Shown here piece after piece: positions 33,634 to 58,766 of a stretch of DNA of 64,000 nucleotides. The stretch is taken from positions 6,386,001 to 6,450,000 of the forward strand of contig NZ_CP049143.1 of assembly GCF_011044495.1 (NCBI RefSeq), written 5' to 3'. A program made the translations under genes and the position numbers. The notes under the pieces were generated by a model, which saw only the letters and a list, made by a program, of their open reading frames with translations, ran no database searches and was not told the DNA's origin. Origin of the DNA: Roseimicrobium sp. ORNL1. GTDB taxonomy: Bacteria > Verrucomicrobiota > Verrucomicrobiia > Verrucomicrobiales > Verrucomicrobiaceae. The number at the start of each line of letters is the position of its first letter. Position 1 is the stretch's first letter.

Positions 33634-35145
33634 TTATCGCTTCTCCGTCACGGCCACCTGAGCGGCTTTGGCGTCGGCTTTGCCACGAAGGGCGTTGCGG
33701 ATGGAATCTGGATAGACACCCATCACCACAATGCTGGCGGTGAAGACCGCGAGCAGAATGGCCGAGGGAAGTCCCAGCTTGAGTTTCGCGGGAGCGGCCT
33801 CGCCGTCGACCTTGGAGTAGAGCGAGAGGATGACTCGGAAGTAATAATAGAAACCAACCGCGGCGCCGATGACGGCAATCACGAGGTAGGCATAGGCGCC
33901 ATCCAGCACCGTGGCGAAGATGACGAGGAACTTGCCCATGAAACCAGCGGTCAGCGGAAGACCGGCCAGCGAGGCGAGCGCGAGGGTGACAGCCATGCCC
34001 AGCTTCGGATTGCTCAGCGCGAGACCGCGCAGGCTGGCAATTTCTTCTCCCAGACCCTGGGCGCGCGCGGTGCTCAGAAGCAGGAAGCAGATGAAAGTCA
34101 TCGGCAGGTAGGTGGCCAGGTAGAAGGCGGCGATCTCACCGGAGGTCAGCCCTGTGTTCGCGGTGTGCAGGCATCCCAGCACGACAATCAGGTAACCCGC
34201 ATGGGCGATGCTCGAATACGCGAGCAGGCGCTTGAAGTTCGTCTGGGCAATCGCGGCCAGGTTTCCGAGAAGGATGGTAGCGCCGCCGAGCACGAGCAGC
34301 ACGTGTGAAATGGGCTGGGCAATGGCGGAACCTTCCGCAACAAAAGTCTCCACCACGCGGGTAAGGACGACGAAGCCTGCTGCCTTGGAACCCACGGAAA
34401 GGAATGCCGTCACCGGAGTAGGGGCGCCTTGATACACGTCCGGCACCCAGATGTGGAAGGGCACAGCGCCCACCTTGAATCCGAGGCCTGCAATCACCAG
34501 CGCAGCGGCAAAGAGCAGAGGTGCCGTGCTGCCCTCCCAATGCTGGAGCGAGTGGGCGATTTCTTCCAGCGTCAGTCCGCCGGTCATGCCGTACAGCCAG
34601 GAGAGGCCGTAGATGAGAAGGCCTGTGCTGAGAGCACCGAGAATCAGATACTTCACGCCGGCTTCCAGGGAGGAAGCGCTGCGCCGCATGTAGGCCACCA
34701 GCACGTAGAAGCTCACCGTCACCAGTTCGAGAGCCACGAAGATGGTGATGATGTCCTTGGCCGAGGCCATGACCATCATGCCCACGCAAACGAAGACCGG
34801 CAGGCTGAAGAACTCACCGAGACCCGCTTCCTTGTGCTTCTCGGGGTTGGTGGCCACATACTGGTTCACCACCGGAGCGTATTCCAGAGAGAGCACGATG
34901 GTGGCAATCGTCGCCACGAGCACGAGTCCCTTGTAGAAGAGCGCAAGGCTGTCGACCGCGTAGAAGGTCTCCATGTGTGGAACCTGAGCGCTCGCCCCAC
35001 CGGAGATGAGAATGATCAATGCCAACGTGAGACCTCCGAGCGCACCGTAGGCAAGCGTCTTGCGCGGCACGCGGGTGAATGCCTCCACCAGCAGCAGCAC
35101 AAGGCCGAGCACACCAAGAGCGAGTTCCAGAGAGAGCGGTGACAT
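33634..35145 (-). CDS. nuoN: NADH-quinone oxidoreductase subunit N
   Basis: A 503-aa polytopic antiporter-like subunit of complex I. It contains the Lys/Glu-bearing helices expected of NuoN, including ELVTVSFYVLVAYMRRS, HIWVPDVYQGAPTPVTAFLS and LLAYSSIAHAGYLIV. It forms one of three proton paths of the membrane arm. Last gene of the nuoH-N operon; starts 6 bp after nuoM ends. Confidence 0.96.
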   Translation of the reverse strand: MSPLSLELALGVLGLVLLLVEAFTRVPRKTLAYGALGGLTLALIILISGGASAQVPHMETFYAVDSLALFYKGLVLVATIATIVLSLEYAPVVNQYVATNPEKHKEAGLGEFFSLPVFVCVGMMVMASAKDIITIFVALELVTVSFYVLVAYMRRSASSLEAGVKYLILGALSTGLLIYGLSWLYGMTGGLTLEEIAHSLQHWEGSTAPLLFAAALVIAGLGFKVGAVPFHIWVPDVYQGAPTPVTAFLSVGSKAAGFVVLTRVVETFVAEGSAIAQPISHVLLVLGGATILLGNLAAIAQTNFKRLLAYSSIAHAGYLIVVLGCLHTANTGLTSGEIAAFYLATYLPMTFICFLLLSTARAQGLGEEIASLRGLALSNPKLGMAVTLALASLAGLPLTAGFMGKFLVIFATVLDGAYAYLVIAVIGAAVGFYYYFRVILSLYSKVDGEAAPAKLKLGLPSAILLAVFTASIVVMGVYPDSIRNALRGKADAKAAQVAVTEKR

Positions 35146-35151
35146 CAGAAT

Positions 35152-36651
35152 TTAGTTCGCTGCGAGTGTCGCGAGTGTTTTCAGCGAGGCGTCGATCACC
35201 TGCAGCAGGGAGCCGGGGTACACACCGACGATGAACAGGGCGGCCGCCAGAAGGATCATGGGCACACGCAGGCCGAATCCCGGGTCGCTGACATAGAGTC
35301 CCGAGGCCGCCTGGCCGAAGAAGAGCTTCCGATACGCGCGGAGCATGTAGACCGCGCTCATGACCACGCCCCAGAGGGAGAAAATGGTGGCCACCTGCAG
35401 GAAGGTGAAGCCCTCAGCGACCTTGAAGCTCTCAAACGTGGAGAAGAAAATCATCACTTCACCCGAGAAGTTCGCGAGGCCGGGCAGACCGATGGAGGCA
35501 AAGGCCGCGATGCCGAACAGCAGGCTGAGGAAAGGCGCATTCTTCGCGAGGCCACCGAGCTTGGCGAACTCCAGCGTGCCAAGCTGGTTGCGGAGACGGC
35601 CGCAGATCATGAAGAGCAGGGCCACCGAAATGCCATGGCCGAACATCAGAAGCACCGCGCCATTCGTTCCGATGGCATTCCCAGCAGCAAGGCCCAGGAA
35701 GATGTAGCCCATGTGCATCACGCTCGAGTTCGCGAGCATGGTATCCAGGCGCGACTGGTGAATGGTGACAAAGCCGATGACGAGGATATTCCCCAGCAGC
35801 ATGTAGAGCAGCGCGTGCTGGACCCAGGGAGTCTTGGCAGCTTCCGGAAGCAAGGGCAACGCGATGCGGATGAGACCGTAGAGACCGAACTTCTTCAACA
35901 CACCCGAGTGCAGCATGGCAACTGGTGTAGGTGAGGCAGCATAGGCGGGAGCAGCCCAGCTATGGAAGGGGAACAAGCTCACCAGCGTGCCGAAGCCCAC
36001 AAGAAGCACGAAGAAATTGATGGGAGCAAAGCTGGCGTAGGGAGCGTCGCCCTTCAGAGGATGCTGCAGCAAGGTGAGCAGGTCGAAGGTCAACTCCCCG
36101 CTCGGCGGACGGCAGTACCACACGACACCGAGGAGACCGGCCAGCAGAATCAAGCTGCCTACACCAAGATAGATGGTGATGCGCCATGCGGCCTGACGCT
36201 TCTCGCCATGACCGTACAAGGCGATCATGAGGAAGGTGGGAATCAGCGCCAACTCATGGAAGGCGTACAGGAAGAAAATGTCCGTGCAAAGGAAGGCGCC
36301 GAGCGCACCGCTCGCGATGAGCAGTGACGCACCGTAATGCAGCTTCTCCTTGCTCGTGGTGGCCCAGACCGCGGCCAGCGTCACGAGCACCGTGAGCAAG
36401 GCCAGCGTGAGGCTGATGCCATCCGCCCCGACCGCGAAGGCGATCTTCGGCGCGGACAGCACTACATGCGAGTTGATGTAAGCCATCTTGCCCTCGATGG
36501 ACGCATCGCCGCGGTACCCGATGAATAACCCCAGCACCAGCAGCAGGTTCACCACCGAGGCTCCCAGCGCCGTGGCGCGGGCGGGCGCACCCAGCCAGAT
36601 GGCAATGGCGGCCAGCAGCGGAAGCAGGATGATGATTTCGAGAGGACTCAC
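35152..36651 (-). CDS. nuoM: NADH-quinone oxidoreductase subunit M
   Basis: A 499-aa antiporter-like subunit. Signature helices include FFLYAFHELALIPTFLMIA, LFPFHSWAAPAYAASPTPV with VAMLHSGVLKKFGLYGLIR, and MLANSSVMHMGYIFLGL. The conserved EL/H pair of the discontinuous helix is intact. I use GTG 36651, giving the membrane start SPLEIIILLPLLAAI; the frame runs to 36867 but that part overlaps nuoL. No strong ribosome binding site is visible. Confidence 0.95.
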   Translation of the reverse strand: MSPLEIIILLPLLAAIAIWLGAPARATALGASVVNLLLVLGLFIGYRGDASIEGKMAYINSHVVLSAPKIAFAVGADGISLTLALLTVLVTLAAVWATTSKEKLHYGASLLIASGALGAFLCTDIFFLYAFHELALIPTFLMIALYGHGEKRQAAWRITIYLGVGSLILLAGLLGVVWYCRPPSGELTFDLLTLLQHPLKGDAPYASFAPINFFVLLVGFGTLVSLFPFHSWAAPAYAASPTPVAMLHSGVLKKFGLYGLIRIALPLLPEAAKTPWVQHALLYMLLGNILVIGFVTIHQSRLDTMLANSSVMHMGYIFLGLAAGNAIGTNGAVLLMFGHGISVALLFMICGRLRNQLGTLEFAKLGGLAKNAPFLSLLFGIAAFASIGLPGLANFSGEVMIFFSTFESFKVAEGFTFLQVATIFSLWGVVMSAVYMLRAYRKLFFGQAASGLYVSDPGFGLRVPMILLAAALFIVGVYPGSLLQVIDASLKTLATLAAN

Positions 36652-36674: not shown

Positions 36675-38561
<1,887 letters not shown>

Positions 38562-38577: not shown

Positions 38578-38895
38578 TCAGCCCTTCATCTTTTCCACAG
38601 CGCCCACATCGACGCTCTGCTTCGCGCGGAAGAGCGCCACGATGATGGCGAGACCCACGGCCACCTCAGCGGCGGCCACGGTGATGGTGAAAAACACCAG
38701 CGCCTGTGCGTTGTAATCAGGAAGCCCCTCCACCAGGCGGAAACGGGAGAAGGCCACCAGCGTGAGATTTGCCGCGCTCAGCATCATCTCCAGGCACATG
38801 TAGATGGTGATGATGTTCCGCCGCACGACCACGCCCACCAGCCCGATCGCAAAGAGCAGGCCGCTGACCATGAGATAATGACTGAGGGTAATCAT
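38578..38895 (-). CDS. nuoK: NADH-quinone oxidoreductase subunit K
   Basis: A 105-aa protein with three membrane helices. The buried glutamates of NuoK are present in CLEMMLSAANLTLVAF and TVAAAEVAVGLAIIVA. Position between nuoJ and nuoL is canonical. Confidence 0.96.
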   Translation of the reverse strand: MITLSHYLMVSGLLFAIGLVGVVVRRNIITIYMCLEMMLSAANLTLVAFSRFRLVEGLPDYNAQALVFFTITVAAAEVAVGLAIIVALFRAKQSVDVGAVEKMKG

Positions 38896-38909: not shown

Positions 38910-39473
38910 CTAGTTCACTTCACGCTTGCTGAGGATGACCACGCCCACGGTGCCGACAAGCAGGAGCACACCGACGAGCTGAATCTGGAAAGGGTAACGC
39001 TGGAAGAGGGCCTGACCCACCAGCTTGGCATCGGGCAGAGACTCACGCTCAAGATCCCGCTTCACACCAGGAAGCGCCTGGGCGCGTGAGGCGTGCTGGA
39101 ACTGCACAGGCACATCAGCGAGCTTCGTGCGCCCCTTGTCGAAGTTGGCCAGAATGCTTCCAAGCTGGGCTACGAAGACGATGGCAAGCAGAGCACCACC
39201 CACCACCGGGAGGGCATTCACCTTTTTCAACTCCTCTGCCCTGATATCCAGAAGCATGACGATGAAAAGGAACAGCACCATCACCGCGCCGGCATACACG
39301 AGGATCTGGATGATGCCGATGAAGTAGGCGTCCAGGCTCACGAAGAGCGCCGCGAGACCCACGAAGCTCACCACCAGGGAGAGCGCGCTGGCCACCGGAT
39401 TACGCAGCACCACGACCAGCAGGCCGAAGACCAGCGTTATCGCAGCAAAGAGGTAAAACAACACGGACGGCAT
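38910..39473 (-). CDS. nuoJ: NADH-quinone oxidoreductase subunit J
   Basis: A 187-aa membrane subunit with about five helices: FYLFAAITLVFGLLVVV, NPVASALSLVVSFVGLAALF and IQILVYAGAVMVLFLFIVML, the last holding the pi-bulge helix region typical of NuoJ. A longer soluble loop (about 100-145) precedes the final helix. Six bp after nuoI. Confidence 0.95.
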   Translation of the reverse strand: MPSVLFYLFAAITLVFGLLVVVLRNPVASALSLVVSFVGLAALFVSLDAYFIGIIQILVYAGAVMVLFLFIVMLLDIRAEELKKVNALPVVGGALLAIVFVAQLGSILANFDKGRTKLADVPVQFQHASRAQALPGVKRDLERESLPDAKLVGQALFQRYPFQIQLVGVLLLVGTVGVVILSKREVN

Positions 39474-39479
39474 GGCGGC

Positions 39480-40013
39480 TTACTTCAAATCGTTCCACTT
39501 GTTTACCAGGCCGACACGCACGCCGCCGATTTCATAAAGCTTGGCCTTGTCATGCACCATCTCCGCACGGCTCGTGCCGGTGATGGCGTAGTCCTTGCGC
39601 AGGAAGATGGCCTGCTCAGGGCAGACTTCCTCGCACATGCCGCAGTAGATGCAGCGGATCATGTCGATCTTGAATTCCTTGGGGCGTTTCTCGACCTTGG
39701 CCCACTTGTCCTCGCTGGGGATTTCCTCAGGCGTGATGGTGATGGCACGGGGGGGACAGATGAATTCGCAGAGCTGACAGCTCACGCAGCGCTCGCGGCC
39801 ATGCTCATCCGTCACCAGCGTGGGCGCACCACGATAATGATCCGGCAGGTTCGCATCCCATTTCTCCTCGGGATACTGCATGGTCACCTTCTTGCGACCA
39901 CGCATGATGGCAATGGCATGGCCCAGCGTGATGCGCAGGCCTTTCAGGAACGTGGAGATGAACCAGCGCTCATGCCATTTCAGTTTGGGGCGTTGACAGA
40001 CAATCGTGGCCAT
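39480..40013 (-). CDS. nuoI: NADH-quinone oxidoreductase subunit I
   Basis: A 177-aa ferredoxin-like peripheral subunit with two complete [4Fe-4S] motifs: CVSCQLCEFICP and CIYCGMCEEVCP (about residues 78 and 120). These carry clusters N6a and N6b leading electrons to the quinone site. Starts 12 bp after nuoH. Confidence 0.97.
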   Translation of the reverse strand: MATIVCQRPKLKWHERWFISTFLKGLRITLGHAIAIMRGRKKVTMQYPEEKWDANLPDHYRGAPTLVTDEHGRERCVSCQLCEFICPPRAITITPEEIPSEDKWAKVEKRPKEFKIDMIRCIYCGMCEEVCPEQAIFLRKDYAITGTSRAEMVHDKAKLYEIGGVRVGLVNKWNDLK

Positions 40014-40025
40014 ATTCGCGGGCGA

Positions 40026-41240
40026 TCAGATGCGGAACCACAGCATAAGCACGGCGGTGAGGAACACATTCGCCAGTGCGAGTTCAAAGAAGACCAGCCA
40101 GCCGAGCTTCATGAGCTGGTCATAACGGAAGCGCGGCAGGGTCCACCGCACCCAGATGAAGAAGAGAATGAAGAGGAAGACCTTCGCGAGGAAGCACACG
40201 ATATGAATCAGGCCCAGCAGCAAGGGAGTGGAGCCCTCTTTGAAGGTGAGCTGAATCCCGGTCCACTGCTCAATCAGTCCACCAAAAGGAATGCTCCAGC
40301 CGCCGAGGAAGAGCGTGACCGCCAGACCGGAGCCGATGATCATCGCAGCGTACTCACCCATGAAGAACAGGGCGAACTTCATCGAGCTGTACTCGGTATG
40401 GTAACCAGCGACGAGTTCCGTTTCGCACTCAGGAAGGTCGAAGGGAGCACGATTCGTCTCCGCGAACATGGAGATCACGAAGATGACGAAGGAGATGAAA
40501 ATGGGAATGAGCAGGACCCAGCGGCCCAGTGTGAGGCCCTCGCCCCAGAAGGGAAGCAGCAGCCAGCCGTTCTTGTCCTGATAGCGGGCAATCTCCGGGA
40601 GATTCAGGTCGCCGATGATCATCAGCACGGGGATGATGGAAAGGCCCAGCGCGATTTCGTAGGAAATCATCTGCGAGGAGCTGCGCACCGCACCGAGGAA
40701 GGGATACTTCGAGTTCGAGGACCAGCCCGCGAGCACAATGCCGTACACGCCCAAGGACGCGATGGCGAAGGTGAAGAGCGGCCCCACATTGAGATCCGCG
40801 ATGACCATCGGCACCGCCTGATGCACCCAGGTGCCTTCCAGGCCAAGCTTTCCTGCGATCCAGCTCAGGTCCAGTTCGCTGCCAAAGGGAATCACCACCG
40901 CCGTGAGCAGGGCCGGCACCATGACCAACGTGGGCGCGAGCCAGTAGTAGAACTTCTTTACGTGAGAAGGAGTGAAGTCCTCCTTCAGCAGGAATTTCAA
41001 GCCATCCGCCAGCGGCTGAATCAAGCCGGCAAAAGGAATGTCCTTCTTCCCGCCGAAAAGAGTGAGCGGAATACCCGTGCGGTTCGGGCCCACGCGGTCC
41101 TGGATGACGGCGCTGCCTCGTCGCTCGAAATACACCGAGTACGCCACCATGGGCAAAATGACCAGGAAGCTGAAGAACACGATCTTCACCGCCGAAGCGA
41201 TGAGATACGCGAGATTGATGCTGTCTAGAAAGCTACCCAT
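40026..41240 (-). CDS. nuoH: NADH-quinone oxidoreductase subunit H
   Basis: A 404-aa subunit with about eight helices that forms part of the quinone chamber. Signature segments are YFERRGSAVIQDRVGPNRTG, LQPLADGLKFLLKEDF-like, FAETNRAPFDLPECETELVAGYHTEYSS-type (seen here with FDLPECETELVAG) and WVRWTLPRFRYDQLM. I start at MGSFLDSINLAYL; the frame runs to 41831 but without homology. It is the first gene of the visible nuo operon; nuoG is 15.7 kb away. Confidence 0.96.
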   Translation of the reverse strand: MGSFLDSINLAYLIASAVKIVFFSFLVILPMVAYSVYFERRGSAVIQDRVGPNRTGIPLTLFGGKKDIPFAGLIQPLADGLKFLLKEDFTPSHVKKFYYWLAPTLVMVPALLTAVVIPFGSELDLSWIAGKLGLEGTWVHQAVPMVIADLNVGPLFTFAIASLGVYGIVLAGWSSNSKYPFLGAVRSSSQMISYEIALGLSIIPVLMIIGDLNLPEIARYQDKNGWLLLPFWGEGLTLGRWVLLIPIFISFVIFVISMFAETNRAPFDLPECETELVAGYHTEYSSMKFALFFMGEYAAMIIGSGLAVTLFLGGWSIPFGGLIEQWTGIQLTFKEGSTPLLLGLIHIVCFLAKVFLFILFFIWVRWTLPRFRYDQLMKLGWLVFFELALANVFLTAVLMLWFRI

Positions 41241-41309
41241 GAGCCAGCCGCACGATAGCGGGACGTAGAGACCGATCTCACTACCGGAAGCGGGGCGGGG
41301 CGGCAAATT

Positions 41310-41333
41310 GAATTTGTGAAAAATTTCACAAGC
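41310..41333 (-). promoter_or_regulatory. CRP/FNR-type dyad upstream of nuoH
   Basis: The perfect dyad TTGTGAAAAATTTCACAA (41314-41331) fits the CRP consensus TGTGA-N6-TCACA. Its centre lies 82 bp before the nuoH start. A 24-bp sequence containing it is repeated exactly upstream of nuoG. The esterase gene on the other side starts 110 bp away and could share it. Confidence 0.75.
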
Positions 41334-41442: not shown

Positions 41443-42477
41443 ATGAACAAGACCCTGGTTCCTTGGGCGGCACTTTCCCTGTCCCTCGCCCTGAGCCCCC
41501 TGGCTGGCGCTCGAACCTTCACCGACAAGAACGGCCGCAGCATGGAGGCCGAGATTGTGGCCAAACAGGGTGACCAGGTCCGCATCAAACGCACGGACGG
41601 CCAGCAGTTTACCGTGCCCGCCACCACTTTCTCCCCGGCAGACCAGGAGTACATTAGAGCTTGGCAGGCTCCGGGCGGAGCACCGACCCCGGCGTCGACA
41701 CCGGGTACTCCGGCCAAGCCCGGCGCTCCGACCGCCCCCTCAGGCACCGCCGACCCCCGCGTGAAGCCCGGCGCGGTGGTGGCCCTTGAATTCCCCAGCC
41801 TGCCCAAGGACCACAATGGCAACGTGGCCACCTGTAACGTGCGTATTCCCGAGGACTACGACCCCACGAAGCCAGTACCGCTGTTGGTCTGGATTGGCGG
41901 GGGCAAGGGTGGGAACACTCCGAACGGCGGCTTCGCCTTGGTAGATAAGGGCCACTATGCCATCGCCGGCCTCCCCTACCCCTCCACCGTGCCGACGCCG
42001 AACACCGCCCTCGACAACCCGAAGGACTTCGACGTCATCATCGACTACCACAAGGCCATGCTCGCCGATGTGGTGAAGCTTCTGCCGAATCTGGACCCCA
42101 AAATCCGCCTCGTGGCCGGCTTCAGCAACGGCGCCCACACCATCGGCACCAACCTCACCCGCGGCGAAGGCTACTTCATCGACCTCTTCAATGCCTTCAT
42201 CATCATCGAAGGGGGTGGTCGTGACATCGACGCCAAGAAGAAGCTGCGTGAGAAGTTTGCCTACCTGGCCTGGGGCAACGACGCCGCCAAAAAGGGCAGC
42301 AAGGACTACATGGCAAACTATGTGTGCAAGGCCGTGAAGGACGCACGGCTGCAGGTCACCGACCACGAAATGGACGGCGTGGGTCACGATTTCCCCGAGT
42401 CGGAGAAAGCACTCGTGAAGACGTGGATCGAGAAGACCGTGCTGCCAGGGCTGGCGGCGGGACCGAAGAAGCCGTGA
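41443..42477 (+). CDS. Secreted alpha/beta-hydrolase with SHD1-like domain
   Basis: A 344-aa protein. After a signal peptide (LSLSLALSPLAGA) comes an SHD1-like domain: ARTFTDKNGRSMEAEIV and VRIKRTDGQQFTVPATTFS (residues 23-65), common in Planctomycetes and Verrucomicrobia secreted proteins. A Pro/Ala/Thr linker follows, then an esterase-like domain from about residue 115 with the nucleophile elbow GFSNGAH (about 228) and a late GVGHDFPES that may carry the catalytic histidine. It resembles polyhydroxybutyrate-depolymerase-like esterases. Substrate is not known. Confidence 0.8.
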   Translation: MNKTLVPWAALSLSLALSPLAGARTFTDKNGRSMEAEIVAKQGDQVRIKRTDGQQFTVPATTFSPADQEYIRAWQAPGGAPTPASTPGTPAKPGAPTAPSGTADPRVKPGAVVALEFPSLPKDHNGNVATCNVRIPEDYDPTKPVPLLVWIGGGKGGNTPNGGFALVDKGHYAIAGLPYPSTVPTPNTALDNPKDFDVIIDYHKAMLADVVKLLPNLDPKIRLVAGFSNGAHTIGTNLTRGEGYFIDLFNAFIIIEGGGRDIDAKKKLREKFAYLAWGNDAAKKGSKDYMANYVCKAVKDARLQVTDHEMDGVGHDFPESEKALVKTWIEKTVLPGLAAGPKKP

Positions 42478-47907: not shown

Positions 47908-49277
47908 GGCAGTTCTTGGTTCCTCGTTCTTGGTTCTTGGTTATGCGTTCTTCGTTTATGGTTACTCGCTCTCTCTTCGCGGTTCATTCGTTGTCGTTGG
48001 CTCTTGGTTGTTCGTTCGTCATGCACGCGACTGCCGCCAACGAAGAACCAAAAACCAAGAAGCAAGAACAAAAAGCCGAAGTCTTCCGTCCCGAGGCGGG
48101 GAAGTTCCCTCCTCTTGAAAAGGCATACACTTACCGGGGTGAACTCGTGTTCGTGGATCACGTCAACCGCCGCGGCAGCGTTCGCGTGCAGGGTGAGGGT
48201 GGTACGTATTTCCGCAATGCCCCGCAGCCCTTTGCTTTGCTGCCGTATGCCGTGGTGCGCTATCACGGCGCGCCGGCGGATTTGAGGGACATCCCGCTCG
48301 GCACCGTGCTGCACATCCGCGGCTTTCTCCCGCCTGACCCGAAGCTTTCCGCCGTGCCGGTGTTGCCAGTCGACAACAAGAGCAAGATCGCGGGCTACAG
48401 TGGCACCGGTGTCGCACCGGCCGAGAACCACATCCTTCTCTTGGAAGACGAGCCCAGCCATTGCCAGCGCGAAGGCTTGGTCTGGAAGTTGAAGGAACTC
48501 GACATCAAAGACAGTGAGGGAATGATCATCGCCAAACGCGCCCCGAAGGCTGATGGCGCAGGCGGAGACGGCAAGGCCACCGAGGAGAAGCTGACCTTCG
48601 ATGCCGCTACGCGCGTGTGGCGGGGTCGCGAATGTCTGGGCATCGCCGACCTGGTCACCGAAGGCATCTGGCCCGCCAGCGGCAAGAAAGCACTCGATGG
48701 CCAAGCGGTGCAGCTCGGCATCACCTGGAAACCCACACCCGATGGTGTGTTTACCCGATTCCACATCTCGGACATCTGGCTGGACGACGCCGCAACACAG
48801 CGTGCCGCGCAAAATCAAACCGAGCAGCACAAGGCCTTTATCCGCAGTCGCTGGATGCCCGCTTGGGTGGATAATGTCGAGTATGGCAAGTTTGGTCGCG
48901 CCACCGTGACCGTGACCTTGTTCGGCGGCATGGATGCTTCCCTGTATGCCGACTTCAAGAAGAGTGGCCAGGTGCTGGTGAATGGAGCCGAGAATACCTT
49001 GAAACACGCAGGTGGCGGATACGGCCCCGCGCACATGGCTTCCAAAGGCCCCATCCTCGACGTCACGAAGGTCGAGGGAGAGGCTCCTGTGGGCAGCAGC
49101 GGCATCCAGGTCAAGTTTGAGACGGACCTTGTTATCGAAGGCATCCGTCCCACGAGGGTCATCCGCATCCGCCCTGCGGAGTGGCCCCAGGTACAAGTGC
49201 CCCGCGAAGAATATCTGGGCGATGGCACCGACGCCGGTGACCGCTTCCCGACCCCGGACATCTTTCCCAAGTACTGA
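47904..49277 (+). CDS. Secreted protein of unknown function, paralogue A
   Basis: A 457-aa exported protein; from about residue 62 ([14 protein letters not shown]) it is closely similar, about three quarters identical by eye, to the protein encoded at 50482-51786. The body has repeated beta segments, e.g. [34 protein letters not shown], and ends [12 protein letters not shown]. No named domain is recognised. The GTG start overlaps the upstream stop; ATG 47943 is an alternative start. Unusually, the signal region and the mature N-terminus ([12 protein letters not shown]) are written in GTTCTTGG-type repeat sequence. Confidence 0.75.
47911..48071. repeat. GTTCTTGG-family repeat inside paralogue A
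   Basis: TTCTTGGTTCCTCGTTCTTGG and further copies run from 47911 to about 47960, and inverted copies such as GAAGAACCAAAAACCAAG lie at 48041-48071. The two sides can pair. The whole element is in frame and encodes the signal peptide region and a Lys/Gln/Glu-rich linker of paralogue A. Confidence 0.75.
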
Positions 49278-50481: not shown

Positions 50482-51786
50482 ATGAAGCTCCCCCTGCTCG
50501 TCGCTTTTTTGTGCGTTCTCACCGCCGTCGCACCTGCTGCTGGCGAAGAATCAAGCACCAAGAACAAAGAACCAGGAACGGGAATCTTTCGTCCCGAGGC
50601 GGGGAAGTTTCCTCCTTTGGAAAAAGCGCACTCCTATCGAGGTGAGTTGGTGTTTGTGGATCATGCGAACCGCCGGGGCAGCATCCGCGTGCAAGGGAAC
50701 GGCGTGTTTCGCCGGAATGAACCGCAACCTTTTGCCATGCTTCCCTACGGCATGGTTCGCTATCACGGCGCACCGGCGGATCTCAGAGACATCCCGCTCG
50801 GCACCGTGCTACACGTCCGTGCTTTCCTCCCGCCAGACCCGAAGATTTCCTCCGTGCCGGTGCTGCCCGTCGACAACAAGGAGAAAAGATCCAGCTACGG
50901 TGACATCGGTGCCGCCCCCGCCGAAAACCATGTCCTTCTCCTCGAAGATGAGCCCAGCCACTGCCAGCGCGGGGGATTGGTCTGGAGGCTCAAGGAACTG
51001 GAGCTCAAAAACAACGAGGGCACGATCGTAGCCACCCGCGAACCGAAGGCAGATAGCGCAGGCGGGAACAGCAAGGCCAGCGAGGAAACACTGACCTTCG
51101 ACGCCGCCACGCGCATCTGGCGAGGTCGTGAATGCCTCGAGATCGCCGACCTGATCGCAGAGGGTGCTTGGCCTGCCAGCGGTAAGAAATCTCTCGATGG
51201 CCAAGCTGTGCTGCTCGGAGTCACTTGGAAACCCACGCTGGGCGGTGTGTTCACCCGTTTCCACATCTCAGACATCTGGCTGGACGACGCCGCCATGCAA
51301 CGCGCCGCCAAGAACCAGACCGAGAGACACAAGGCTTTCATTCATAGCCGTTGGATGCCTGCATGGGTATACTCGGTGGAGTATGGCAAGTTCGGTCGCG
51401 CGACCGTGACCGCGACTCTGTTCGGCGGCATGGACGCCTCTCTCTACGACGACTTCAAGAAGGACCTCCAGGTGTTCGTGAATGGAGTGGAGAACACCCT
51501 GAAGCACACCGAAGGAGGCACCGCTGGGCCCACTCAAATGGCCTCACGCGGCACCCTCCTCGATGTCACGAAGACACCCGGAGACGCTCCCCTTGGCAGC
51601 AGCGGCATCCAAATCCGCTTCGAAACAGACCTCATCACCGAAGGCATCCGTCCCACCCGCATCATCCGCATCCGCCCCGCCGACTGGCCCGATGTCCACA
51701 TGCCGCGCGAGGAATACCTCAACAGCGGCGGGAACTTCAGCCACGAAGACCGCTTCCCGACGCCGGATATTTTTCCGAAGTATTGA
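50482..51786 (+). CDS. Secreted protein of unknown function, paralogue B
   Basis: A 434-aa protein with a clean signal peptide ([19 protein letters not shown]), followed by the linker [13 protein letters not shown] that is partly repeat-derived, and then a body nearly collinear with paralogue [45 protein letters not shown] and [12 protein letters not shown] at the end. No named domain is recognised. A reading from 50386 is open through the repeat but implausible. The tandem arrangement A - LRR - B suggests duplication of a unit including the 5' repeat. Confidence 0.78.
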
Positions 51787-56958: not shown

Positions 56959-58692
56959 CTACCCAACAATAATCCCCTTCGCCTTGCGCTCGCGTTCGCG
57001 CTCCAGCAGGGGGATCTTCTCGTCGGTCTCCATGACCTGCACGCCGAGGTCGCCGATGCCACGCAGGGTCTTGCCCTGGAAGATGGCGATTTCACCGGCC
57101 ATGCGCTTGAAGACATCGTCCACAGAGTGGAGGCCGTTCGATCCGCTCACGGCGAGGATGAGGTCACGCAGGATTTCCCAGTCGTCATGCGCTTCGCCGG
57201 GGAGTTCCACCGCCTTGTTCAGGCGCTGGAGACGGCCGGTGACATTGATCATGCTACCGCGCTTCTCGGCATAGGTCGCTCCGGGGAGCACCACATGGGA
57301 GAGCTCAGCGGTCGCATTCGCCAGCACGTGGCTGGAGGCGAGGAATTTCAGCTTGCCCAGCACTTCCTTGGTGAGGCCGAGCTTCAGGAGGTTTTCGCCG
57401 AGGGCGAGCACGACCTTGATCTTGCCCGCCGTGATGTCGGCGATGATCTGGTCGAGCTGCTTGCCAGGCTCCGTGCCCCAGATGGTGCGCACCCCATTGC
57501 TGTTGGGGTTCATGTCGGCGGCACGCAGGAAGTTGTCGGCCTCGCGGGTGCGGGGCACCACATCGAACTGCGAGGTACCGAGCGCCTTGATGAGGGCCTT
57601 CGCGAGGTAGAGCTCTTCATTCGTCATGCGCGCGGAGGCGATGACGGCAATCTGGTCGGCGGGCACTCCGGCGACACCCTGCGCCACGGCGAGGATGGCG
57701 TCCTTCCACGTCGCGGCCTGGTGCTTGCCCGCCGCCTTCTTGATGAGCGGCTGGGTGAGGCGGAACTCGCTGTTGACGAAATGGAAGTCGAGACGGCCAC
57801 GGTCGCACATCCACGTGCTGTTCACGTCGTTGTTCTCGCGCGGGGTCTGGCGGTAGATGGCCTGCTGGCGGGAGGAGATCTCCATGTTGCAGCCGCGGCC
57901 GCACTGCGTGCAGATGGACTTCGTTTCCTTCAGGAACCAGACGCGCTGCTGGAAGCGGAAGTCATTCGAGGTCAGCGCTCCCACCGGGCAGATGTCCACG
58001 GTGTTGAGCGAGTAATTGTTCTCCAAGCGCTTGCCGGGGTGCACCGCGAGGGTGGTGTGGCTGCCGCGCTCCGTGAAGCCCAGCACCGGATCATCCACGA
58101 TTTCCGCGCAGAAGCGAATGCAGCGGGAGCACATGATGCAACGCTCGTCATCCAGACGCACGCGCGGGCCGACATCGACATTCTTCGGCTTCTTGACCTT
58201 CTCCTCGCGGAAGCGGCTCTGGCCATTGCCATGCTCCACGCTGAACTCCTGCAGACGGCACTCACCGGCCTGGTCACAAATGGGGCAGTCGAGGGGGTGA
58301 TTGATGAGCAGGAGCTCCATCACGCCGCGGCGGCATTCTTCGCTCAGCTTGCCCCCAGTACGGATGCCCATGCCTTCGCTGACGGTATTCGCGCAGGCGA
58401 TGACGGGACGCGGCATCCAGCCGATGACCGGCATGCCGTGCTCGTCCTTCGCAGGCTCCTGGCCGGGGGTGGGACGGGGGGGCATGCCCATCTCCACGAG
58501 GCACATACGGCAGTTGCCGGGGGAGGAAAGCTTCGGGTGGTAGCAGTAGTGGGGCACCAGCTCACCCGCGATACGGCACGCCTCAATCATGCGCATGCCC
58601 TTGGGGAACTTGTGCCACTTGCCATTGATCTGCACGTTCACCGTGTCCACCGGAGGCGGCGAGGCGGAGGCGCTGGCAGGGGCAGTACTCAT
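56959..58692 (-). CDS. nuoG: NADH-quinone oxidoreductase subunit G
   Basis: A 577-aa iron-sulfur subunit of complex I. The [2Fe-2S] set is YCYHPKLSSPGNCRMC plus VIACANTV; the His/Cys [4Fe-4S] set is HPLDCPICDQAGEC; the ferredoxin set is CIMCSRCIRFC with DICPVGAL; and a CTQCGRGCNM plus STWMCDRGR group opens the molybdopterin-like domain. The total length is short compared with E. coli (908) or Thermus (783), so the C-terminal molybdopterin-like domain is reduced. A long Ala/Ser/Pro start precedes the fold. It is separated from nuoH by about 15.7 kb and stands alone here. Confidence 0.94.
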   Translation of the reverse strand: MSTAPASASASPPPVDTVNVQINGKWHKFPKGMRMIEACRIAGELVPHYCYHPKLSSPGNCRMCLVEMGMPPRPTPGQEPAKDEHGMPVIGWMPRPVIACANTVSEGMGIRTGGKLSEECRRGVMELLLINHPLDCPICDQAGECRLQEFSVEHGNGQSRFREEKVKKPKNVDVGPRVRLDDERCIMCSRCIRFCAEIVDDPVLGFTERGSHTTLAVHPGKRLENNYSLNTVDICPVGALTSNDFRFQQRVWFLKETKSICTQCGRGCNMEISSRQQAIYRQTPRENNDVNSTWMCDRGRLDFHFVNSEFRLTQPLIKKAAGKHQAATWKDAILAVAQGVAGVPADQIAVIASARMTNEELYLAKALIKALGTSQFDVVPRTREADNFLRAADMNPNSNGVRTIWGTEPGKQLDQIIADITAGKIKVVLALGENLLKLGLTKEVLGKLKFLASSHVLANATAELSHVVLPGATYAEKRGSMINVTGRLQRLNKAVELPGEAHDDWEILRDLILAVSGSNGLHSVDDVFKRMAGEIAIFQGKTLRGIGDLGVQVMETDEKIPLLERERERKAKGIIVG

Positions 58693-58742
58693 CGTAATAA
58701 GGCTAGAGGCATTAATGGATTCGCGGGAGTGTCCAGCAAGGG

Positions 58743-58766
58743 GAATTTGTGAAAAATTTCACAAGC
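58743..58766 (-). promoter_or_regulatory. CRP/FNR-type dyad upstream of nuoG
   Basis: The same 24-bp sequence as upstream of nuoH, holding the dyad TTGTGAAAAATTTCACAA (58747-58764). Its centre lies 63 bp before the nuoG start, a usual activator position if the transcript begins close to the gene. Confidence 0.75.

Follow-up and report, generated by a model that had tools for sequence, protein, structure and literature searches.

A predicted Rex operator repeated before the scattered complex I genes and other energy genes of Roseimicrobium and its relatives

In Roseimicrobium sp. ORNL1 the genes for respiratory complex I (nuo) are broken into separate units, and two of these, 15.7 kb apart in the 64,000-nucleotide stretch of DNA analysed here (contig NZ_CP049143.1, positions 6,386,001 to 6,450,000; hereafter the window), are preceded by the same short sequence. 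Which regulator might read this sequence, and which genes does it mark? The identical 24-bp repeat GAATTTGTGAAAAATTTCACAAGC was confirmed at 41310-41333 and 58743-58766, with a TGTGA-N6-TCACA dyad inside it, as a first-pass annotation had claimed. That annotation placed the site 63-82 bp before both genes, which held roughly for nuoH (the 24-mer ends 69 bp upstream) but was too large for nuoG (50 bp). The repeat contains an 18-bp core, TTGTGAAAAATTTCACAA, for which the window held two copies and no further copy at up to three mismatches (0.02 expected from shuffles). Genome-wide, the exact 18-mer was found in seven copies and the full 24-mer was seen at nuoH, nuoG and nuoE. The features of the two units, in window coordinates, are as follows.

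41314-41331, no strand assigned: predicted Rex operator of the nuoH-N operon, 18 bp, TTGTGAAAAATTTCACAA, inside the 24-bp repeat 41310-41333 (consensus as given in excerpts of PMC2883068 and PMC5355995)
41301-41306, minus strand: -35-like hexamer TTGCCG of nuoH, 7 bp from the operator, proposed by reading and from the class-wide position
41278-41283, minus strand: -10-like hexamer TAGTGA of nuoH, 17 bp from the -35, proposed by reading and from the YANNNT peak
40026-41240, minus strand: nuoH, first gene of the nuoH-N unit (PF00146; our own start call at 41240)
39480-40013, minus strand: nuoI (4Fe-4S; named from position)
38910-39473, minus strand: nuoJ (PF00499)
38578-38895, minus strand: nuoK (PF00420)
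36675-38561, minus strand: nuoL (PF00361 and PF00662)
35152-36651, minus strand: nuoM, an open reading frame named from position alone
33634-35145, minus strand: nuoN (Proton_antipo_M; named from position)
58747-58764, no strand assigned: predicted Rex operator of nuoG, inside the identical 24-bp repeat 58743-58766
58734-58739, minus strand: -35-like hexamer TTGCTG of nuoG, 7 bp from the operator, proposed by reading and from the class-wide position
56959-58692, minus strand: nuoG (PF00384, Molybdopterin; PF22117; PF10588; NADH-G_4Fe-4S_3 also named; start at 58692)

A 344-aa frame at 41443-42477, with no Pfam or NCBIfam match, diverges from nuoH, the operator region being common to both. Elsewhere in the window, 48026-49216 and 50529-51719 form direct repeats 2.5 kb apart and about 75-80% alike, apparently a duplicated gene, and repeats of the AAGAACCAAGAAC type lie near them.

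Judged from the sequence, the 24-bp repeat is almost certainly a docking site of Rex, a sensor of the NADH balance. The Rex consensus TTGTGAA-N4-TTCACAA, as it appears in excerpts of PMC2883068, PMC5355995 and PMC6391272, agrees with the arms of the repeat and contains TGTGA-N6-TCACA, which accounts for the first-pass reading of the site as the operator of a CRP/FNR-family regulator. A profile search returned one Rex in the genome (PF06971, E 5.8e-16), composed of the N-terminal winged helix PF06971 and a Rossmann CoA_binding domain and encoded at genome position 6,796,205, about 0.35 Mb past the window on the same chromosome. It scored over the cut-off of six of the nine NCBIfam Rex models listed (five equivalog and one subfamily: NF003995, NF003992, NF003993, NF003996, NF003989 and NF003994) and below that of NF003990, NF003988 and NF003991. 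Eight PDB chains were matched at E 1e-33 to 1e-43, all of them Rex or carrying its early name, and the closest named proteins were the Rex of Verrucomicrobium sp. BvORR106 and BvORR034 (87%) and of a Phragmitibacter MAG (83%). The residues through which S. agalactiae Rex is reported to touch the DNA bases (Arg50, Arg51 and Arg62; an excerpt of PMC8376106) align to Arg, Lys and Arg, and the PDB Rex chains 5zz5 and 3ikv likewise have a Lys. CRP/FNR operators resemble the site in their TGTGA-N6-TCACA half-sites, but the arms here reach out to TTGTGAA and TTCACAA. The profile search gave no match to PF00325 in the genome and nothing over the cut-off for PF13545, with only two places below it, whose frames resemble by eye a GntR-type regulator and an ECF sigma factor. 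With no such helix-turn-helix protein over cut-off and a site that follows the distribution of Rex across the class, we rejected the CRP/FNR assignment as very improbable.

Ten perfect matches to TTGTGAANNNNTTCACAA were found in the 7.96 Mb genome; allowing a single mismatch added no site, and allowing two added fifteen. A reversed control pattern gave none at zero mismatches and 6 at up to two, against 25 for the real pattern. Each of the ten exact sites precedes respiratory or energy genes. Six lie before complex I fragments (nuoH-N, nuoG, nuoF, nuoE, nuoD and nuoB-C), and the others before the ATP synthase operon, an alternative complex III (ACIII)/oxidase operon, a polyprenyl synthase and an H+-pyrophosphatase. 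The proposal that a common operator links the split nuo units thus stood, and scatter of the 24-mer away from respiratory genes, which the annotation had named as the case against an operator, was not seen among the exact sites. Of the seven units into which complex I is split, six have an operator; the suggested scan before nuoA-F found the site at nuoB-C, nuoD, nuoE and nuoF, but not at nuoA, where none was present within the roughly 500 bp upstream examined. The nuoA gene stands alone at genome position 6821800-6822108 on the minus strand (L205/L210), with a TTGACG...TAGTAT promoter, by eye, very near its start codon. The ACIII operon carries on one strand genes for a multihaem cytochrome, a TAT/Fe-S protein, NrfD, a CcoN-like protein, FixO, a cytochrome c, CtaD, COX3, COX2 and CtaA; the name alternative complex III is our reading of the gene order. 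The polyprenyl synthase probably serves quinone. Sites with two mismatches, such as 4250165 before a GHMP kinase and 474867 inside a called open reading frame, were taken as chance. A transaldolase gene (L024:5128-6081) diverges from nuoB over the same operator and could be co-regulated.

Of 384 genomes of the class, 123 had the exact operator and 139 a Rex over cut-off; the two occurred together in 114, the operator alone in 9, Rex alone in 25 and neither in 236 (Fisher p ~1e-60, uncorrected for relatedness). The exceptions were the 25 of 139 Rex-bearing genomes that lacked an exact site and, among the 123 with a site, 9 that lacked a Rex match. Genomes with Rex averaged 3.0 exact sites, those without it 0.045. 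Conservation in relatives, which the annotation had proposed as a check, was found for most sites. The comparison covered 75 sites in 74 regions from 15 relatives, of 18 genomes searched; from G071, G119 and G152, outside this set, one site each was taken (L107-L109), and for G171 the 7 listed sites of 11 were taken. By tblastn, 58 of the 75 sites preceded nuo, atp, act, polyprenyl synthase or rex genes, at distances up to 510 bp (AtpB 12, ActA 10, NuoB 9, NuoD 8, NuoG 6, polyprenyl synthase 6, NuoE 3, NuoF 2, NuoH 1, Rex 1). Nine more adjoined other respiratory genes: cytochrome oxidase or CtaA in four cases, MqnE in two (over cut-off), and a proton-pumping antiporter subunit, a cytochrome c and an NDH-like flavoprotein in one each. 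The remaining eight had no clear energy target (L144, L153, L155, L156, L157, L159, L161 and the second site of L198). Of another 30 loci, 28 had an evident energy target, cydA and a CofH/MqnC-family gene among them, and two, L035 and L058, had none, the latter from a genome without a Rex match. The breakpoints of nuo vary by lineage, with nuoDEF joined in some and nuoD, nuoE and nuoF separate in Roseimicrobium's family and in G340, and each nuo fragment seen in the relatives has its own operator; since sampling started from sites, operator-free fragments such as the nuoA of Roseimicrobium are invisible to it. In G059 a sigma-70-family factor gene (L140:2560-3264) diverges from mqnE over a Rex operator, and in G171 the nuoG operator has a second perfect one 1.4 kb away (L198:3902), close to a gene with an RNA recognition motif.

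These comparisons also bear on the idea that the 24-mer is a dispersed repeat or a promoter cassette copied along with nuo fragments and read by no regulator. The 24-mer and the neighbouring ATT..CTTGCC are indeed near-identical at several nuo units. Between families, however, linker and flanks drift apart but the arms are kept, the site also occurs at atp, act, mqnE and cydA, and it is lost along with Rex, as the mean site counts with and without Rex indicate. We rejected a repeat of this kind as scarcely credible on the ten of ten sites before energy genes and the class-wide co-occurrence with Rex.

The rex gene of Roseimicrobium has no 18-bp site of its own and carries instead a variant 2 bp short, the 16-bp palindrome TTGTGAAAAATCACAA (L017:1473-1488; genome 6796177-6796192), which runs up to the rex start codon. 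This form, approximately TTGTGAA-N2-TTCACAA, was observed 14-20 bp before the inferred rex start in Roseimicrobium and at 13 relative loci whose Rex is about 68% identical or more (L110-L116, L212-L215, L217 and L218); L113 and L215 are the same in sequence, so at most 12 of the 13 are independent. The spacer letters vary, and a TTGAC motif precedes the element in several loci by eye. An exact-arm search found no 16-bp element in 30 other rex loci, and we had considered it a chance occurrence until a tolerant-arm search showed it in Roseimicrobium's family. At L117 a similar form sits elsewhere, at 31 bp, and the one at L123 is weaker; none was found at G340 (L216) or the other distant rex loci examined, and 18-bp sites lie near rex in G216 and G089.

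The position of the operator relative to the promoter was compared in 65 nuo and atp promoters, a first set of 46 including Roseimicrobium and a second set of 19. Measured from the operator, the nearest TTG downstream came at 7 bp (39 promoters), 5 bp (12), 6 bp (5), 15 bp (5, all one family), 17 bp (1) or 3 bp (1), and 2 promoters had none. The gap was thus 5-7 or 15-17 bp in 62 of 65 promoters and 8-14 bp in none, and 35 of 38 family-by-gene groups were wholly in phase; this phase set was chosen after inspecting the data, the shift by one helical turn having been spotted by eye in the second set. The 7-bp spacing was almost absolute in the first set and looser in the second. A -10-like YANNNT peak followed 22-23 bp past the TTG. 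Mean identity was 51% in the linker and 31% over the 20 nt after the TTG, so the spacing has outlasted the sequence around it, with common ancestry still contributing. The polyprenyl synthase and, within the order, the act operators lie near the start codon with a likely promoter upstream of them, whereas in G301, G128, G089 and three second-set loci a TTG follows the act operator after 5-7 bp.

So strict a phase upstream of the -35 is more usual among regulators in contact with RNA polymerase than among those that simply block it, and it leaves room for Rex touching the polymerase, which may make it either a phased repressor or an activator. Rex could act as an activator or dual regulator, with NAD+-bound Rex at about -51 or -61 contacting RNA polymerase and driving nuo and atp when acceptor is plentiful and repressing where its site lies at or downstream of the start site. 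The gap distribution, the in-phase groups and the low identity of the linker and of the bases after the TTG all speak for such a contact, as does the TTGC rather than TTGA found in 36 of 45 first-set -35s. This last sign was given no weight in the end, since in the Rex-less genome G099 the region upstream of nuoD shows by eye a similar TTGC...CATAGT element, and TTGC may therefore be typical of the class. The position of the act operator, upstream in certain families but downstream elsewhere, would require the sign of regulation to flip. Phased upstream repressors such as GalR exist, and our literature search found no report of Rex as a 'direct activator'. The Rex proteins described in the accessible parts of PMC5355995 and PMC2883068 are repressors.

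Natural loss of Rex offers a further view of the sign. G147 and G283 (both genus g8) and G344 (g15) have neither a Rex match nor an exact operator, and Rex-bearing genomes of genera g8 and g15 have 2 to 6 exact operators. At nuoD the operator arms keep 13 of 14 letters in G147, 10 of 14 in G283 and 12 of 14 in G344, and in all three the TTG of the -35 is unchanged, 5 bp downstream of the decayed operator. These nuoD sites look like disused operators, in one gene of three genomes; of the 25 two-mismatch places listed for the trio, 15 were checked, and among these no further operator before nuo, atp or act could be made out. The core promoter did not improve after Rex was lost, which speaks for repression, again in one gene of three genomes, and against a promoter that depended on activation by Rex. 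We consider the activator or dual role unlikely. Equally doubtful is its fuller form, with Rex as a helix-face-dependent partner of RNA polymerase that activates nuo and atp under NAD+ and represses at start-region sites, the shorter rex operator giving a separate set-point; were it true, helix-face activation by Rex would reverse the textbook sign at respiratory operons.

The reading we favour is that a Rex repressor controls oxidative phosphorylation in Verrucomicrobiota, as it does in Streptomyces, each complex I fragment having its own operator, and we regard it as quite likely on the sequence evidence, which covers the operator, its targets, the Rex gene, their co-occurrence and co-loss, and the phasing. 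DNA binding, the response to NADH and repression would follow from known Rex biology. At low NADH, Rex would sit on the 18-bp palindrome and transcription would fall; when NADH builds up, through limitation of oxygen or another acceptor or through plentiful reductant, Rex would be released and the oxidative phosphorylation genes would rise together. Complex I (six of its seven units), ACIII with the terminal oxidases, ATP synthase, the polyprenyl synthase and the H+-pyrophosphatase would be raised jointly. Rex would act just upstream of the -35 on a fixed helix face at nuo and atp, and downstream of the likely promoter at ACIII and the polyprenyl synthase. As the pieces of the broken nuo operon keep their own operators, one regulator can match subunit levels.

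Rex control of nuo and atp is already known, and S. coelicolor, like S. avermitilis, has a known Rex regulon. The accessible parts of PMC5355995 describe repression of the atp, cyd, nuo and rex-hem operons by S. avermitilis Rex and its binding to hppA, with footprints at -50 to -22 (atpI) and -42 to -16 (nuoA1). That regulon shares with ours the operator consensus TTGTGAANNNNTTCACAA and the targets nuo, atp, hppA and rex; of the remainder, cydA and an NDH-like flavoprotein are targets here only in Roseimicrobium's relatives. It differs in that nuo is one operon in Streptomyces and six operator-bearing fragments here, in the ACIII/oxidase, polyprenyl synthase and, in relatives, mqnE targets, and in the operator, which here lies mostly upstream of the -35 in fixed phase, unlike those footprints. 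In Gram-positive fermenters such as S. aureus (excerpts of PMC2883068) the 18-bp TTGTGAAW4TTCACAA is likewise found in or within a few bp of the promoter, but its targets are mainly the fermentation genes adhE, ldh and pfl, whereas here they belong to oxidative phosphorylation.

A literature search, with most subscription journals outside its reach, found no report of Rex in Verrucomicrobiota. What appears to be new is the occurrence in this phylum, a shattered complex I whose pieces have separate operators, the helical phase at the promoters and the 16-bp variant at rex; as far as is known, ACIII, the polyprenyl synthase and MqnE are also new as Rex targets. Because the helical phase is so strict, whether regulation is positive or negative can be tested directly. 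The predicted regulon would extend to Verrucomicrobiota a redox switch known mainly from Gram-positives and would tie nearly the whole chain from NADH to oxygen, together with ATP synthase, to one sensor. It would also be an example from nature of an operon that fell apart and yet had its regulation preserved piece by piece, with the operators decaying in lineages that lack Rex.
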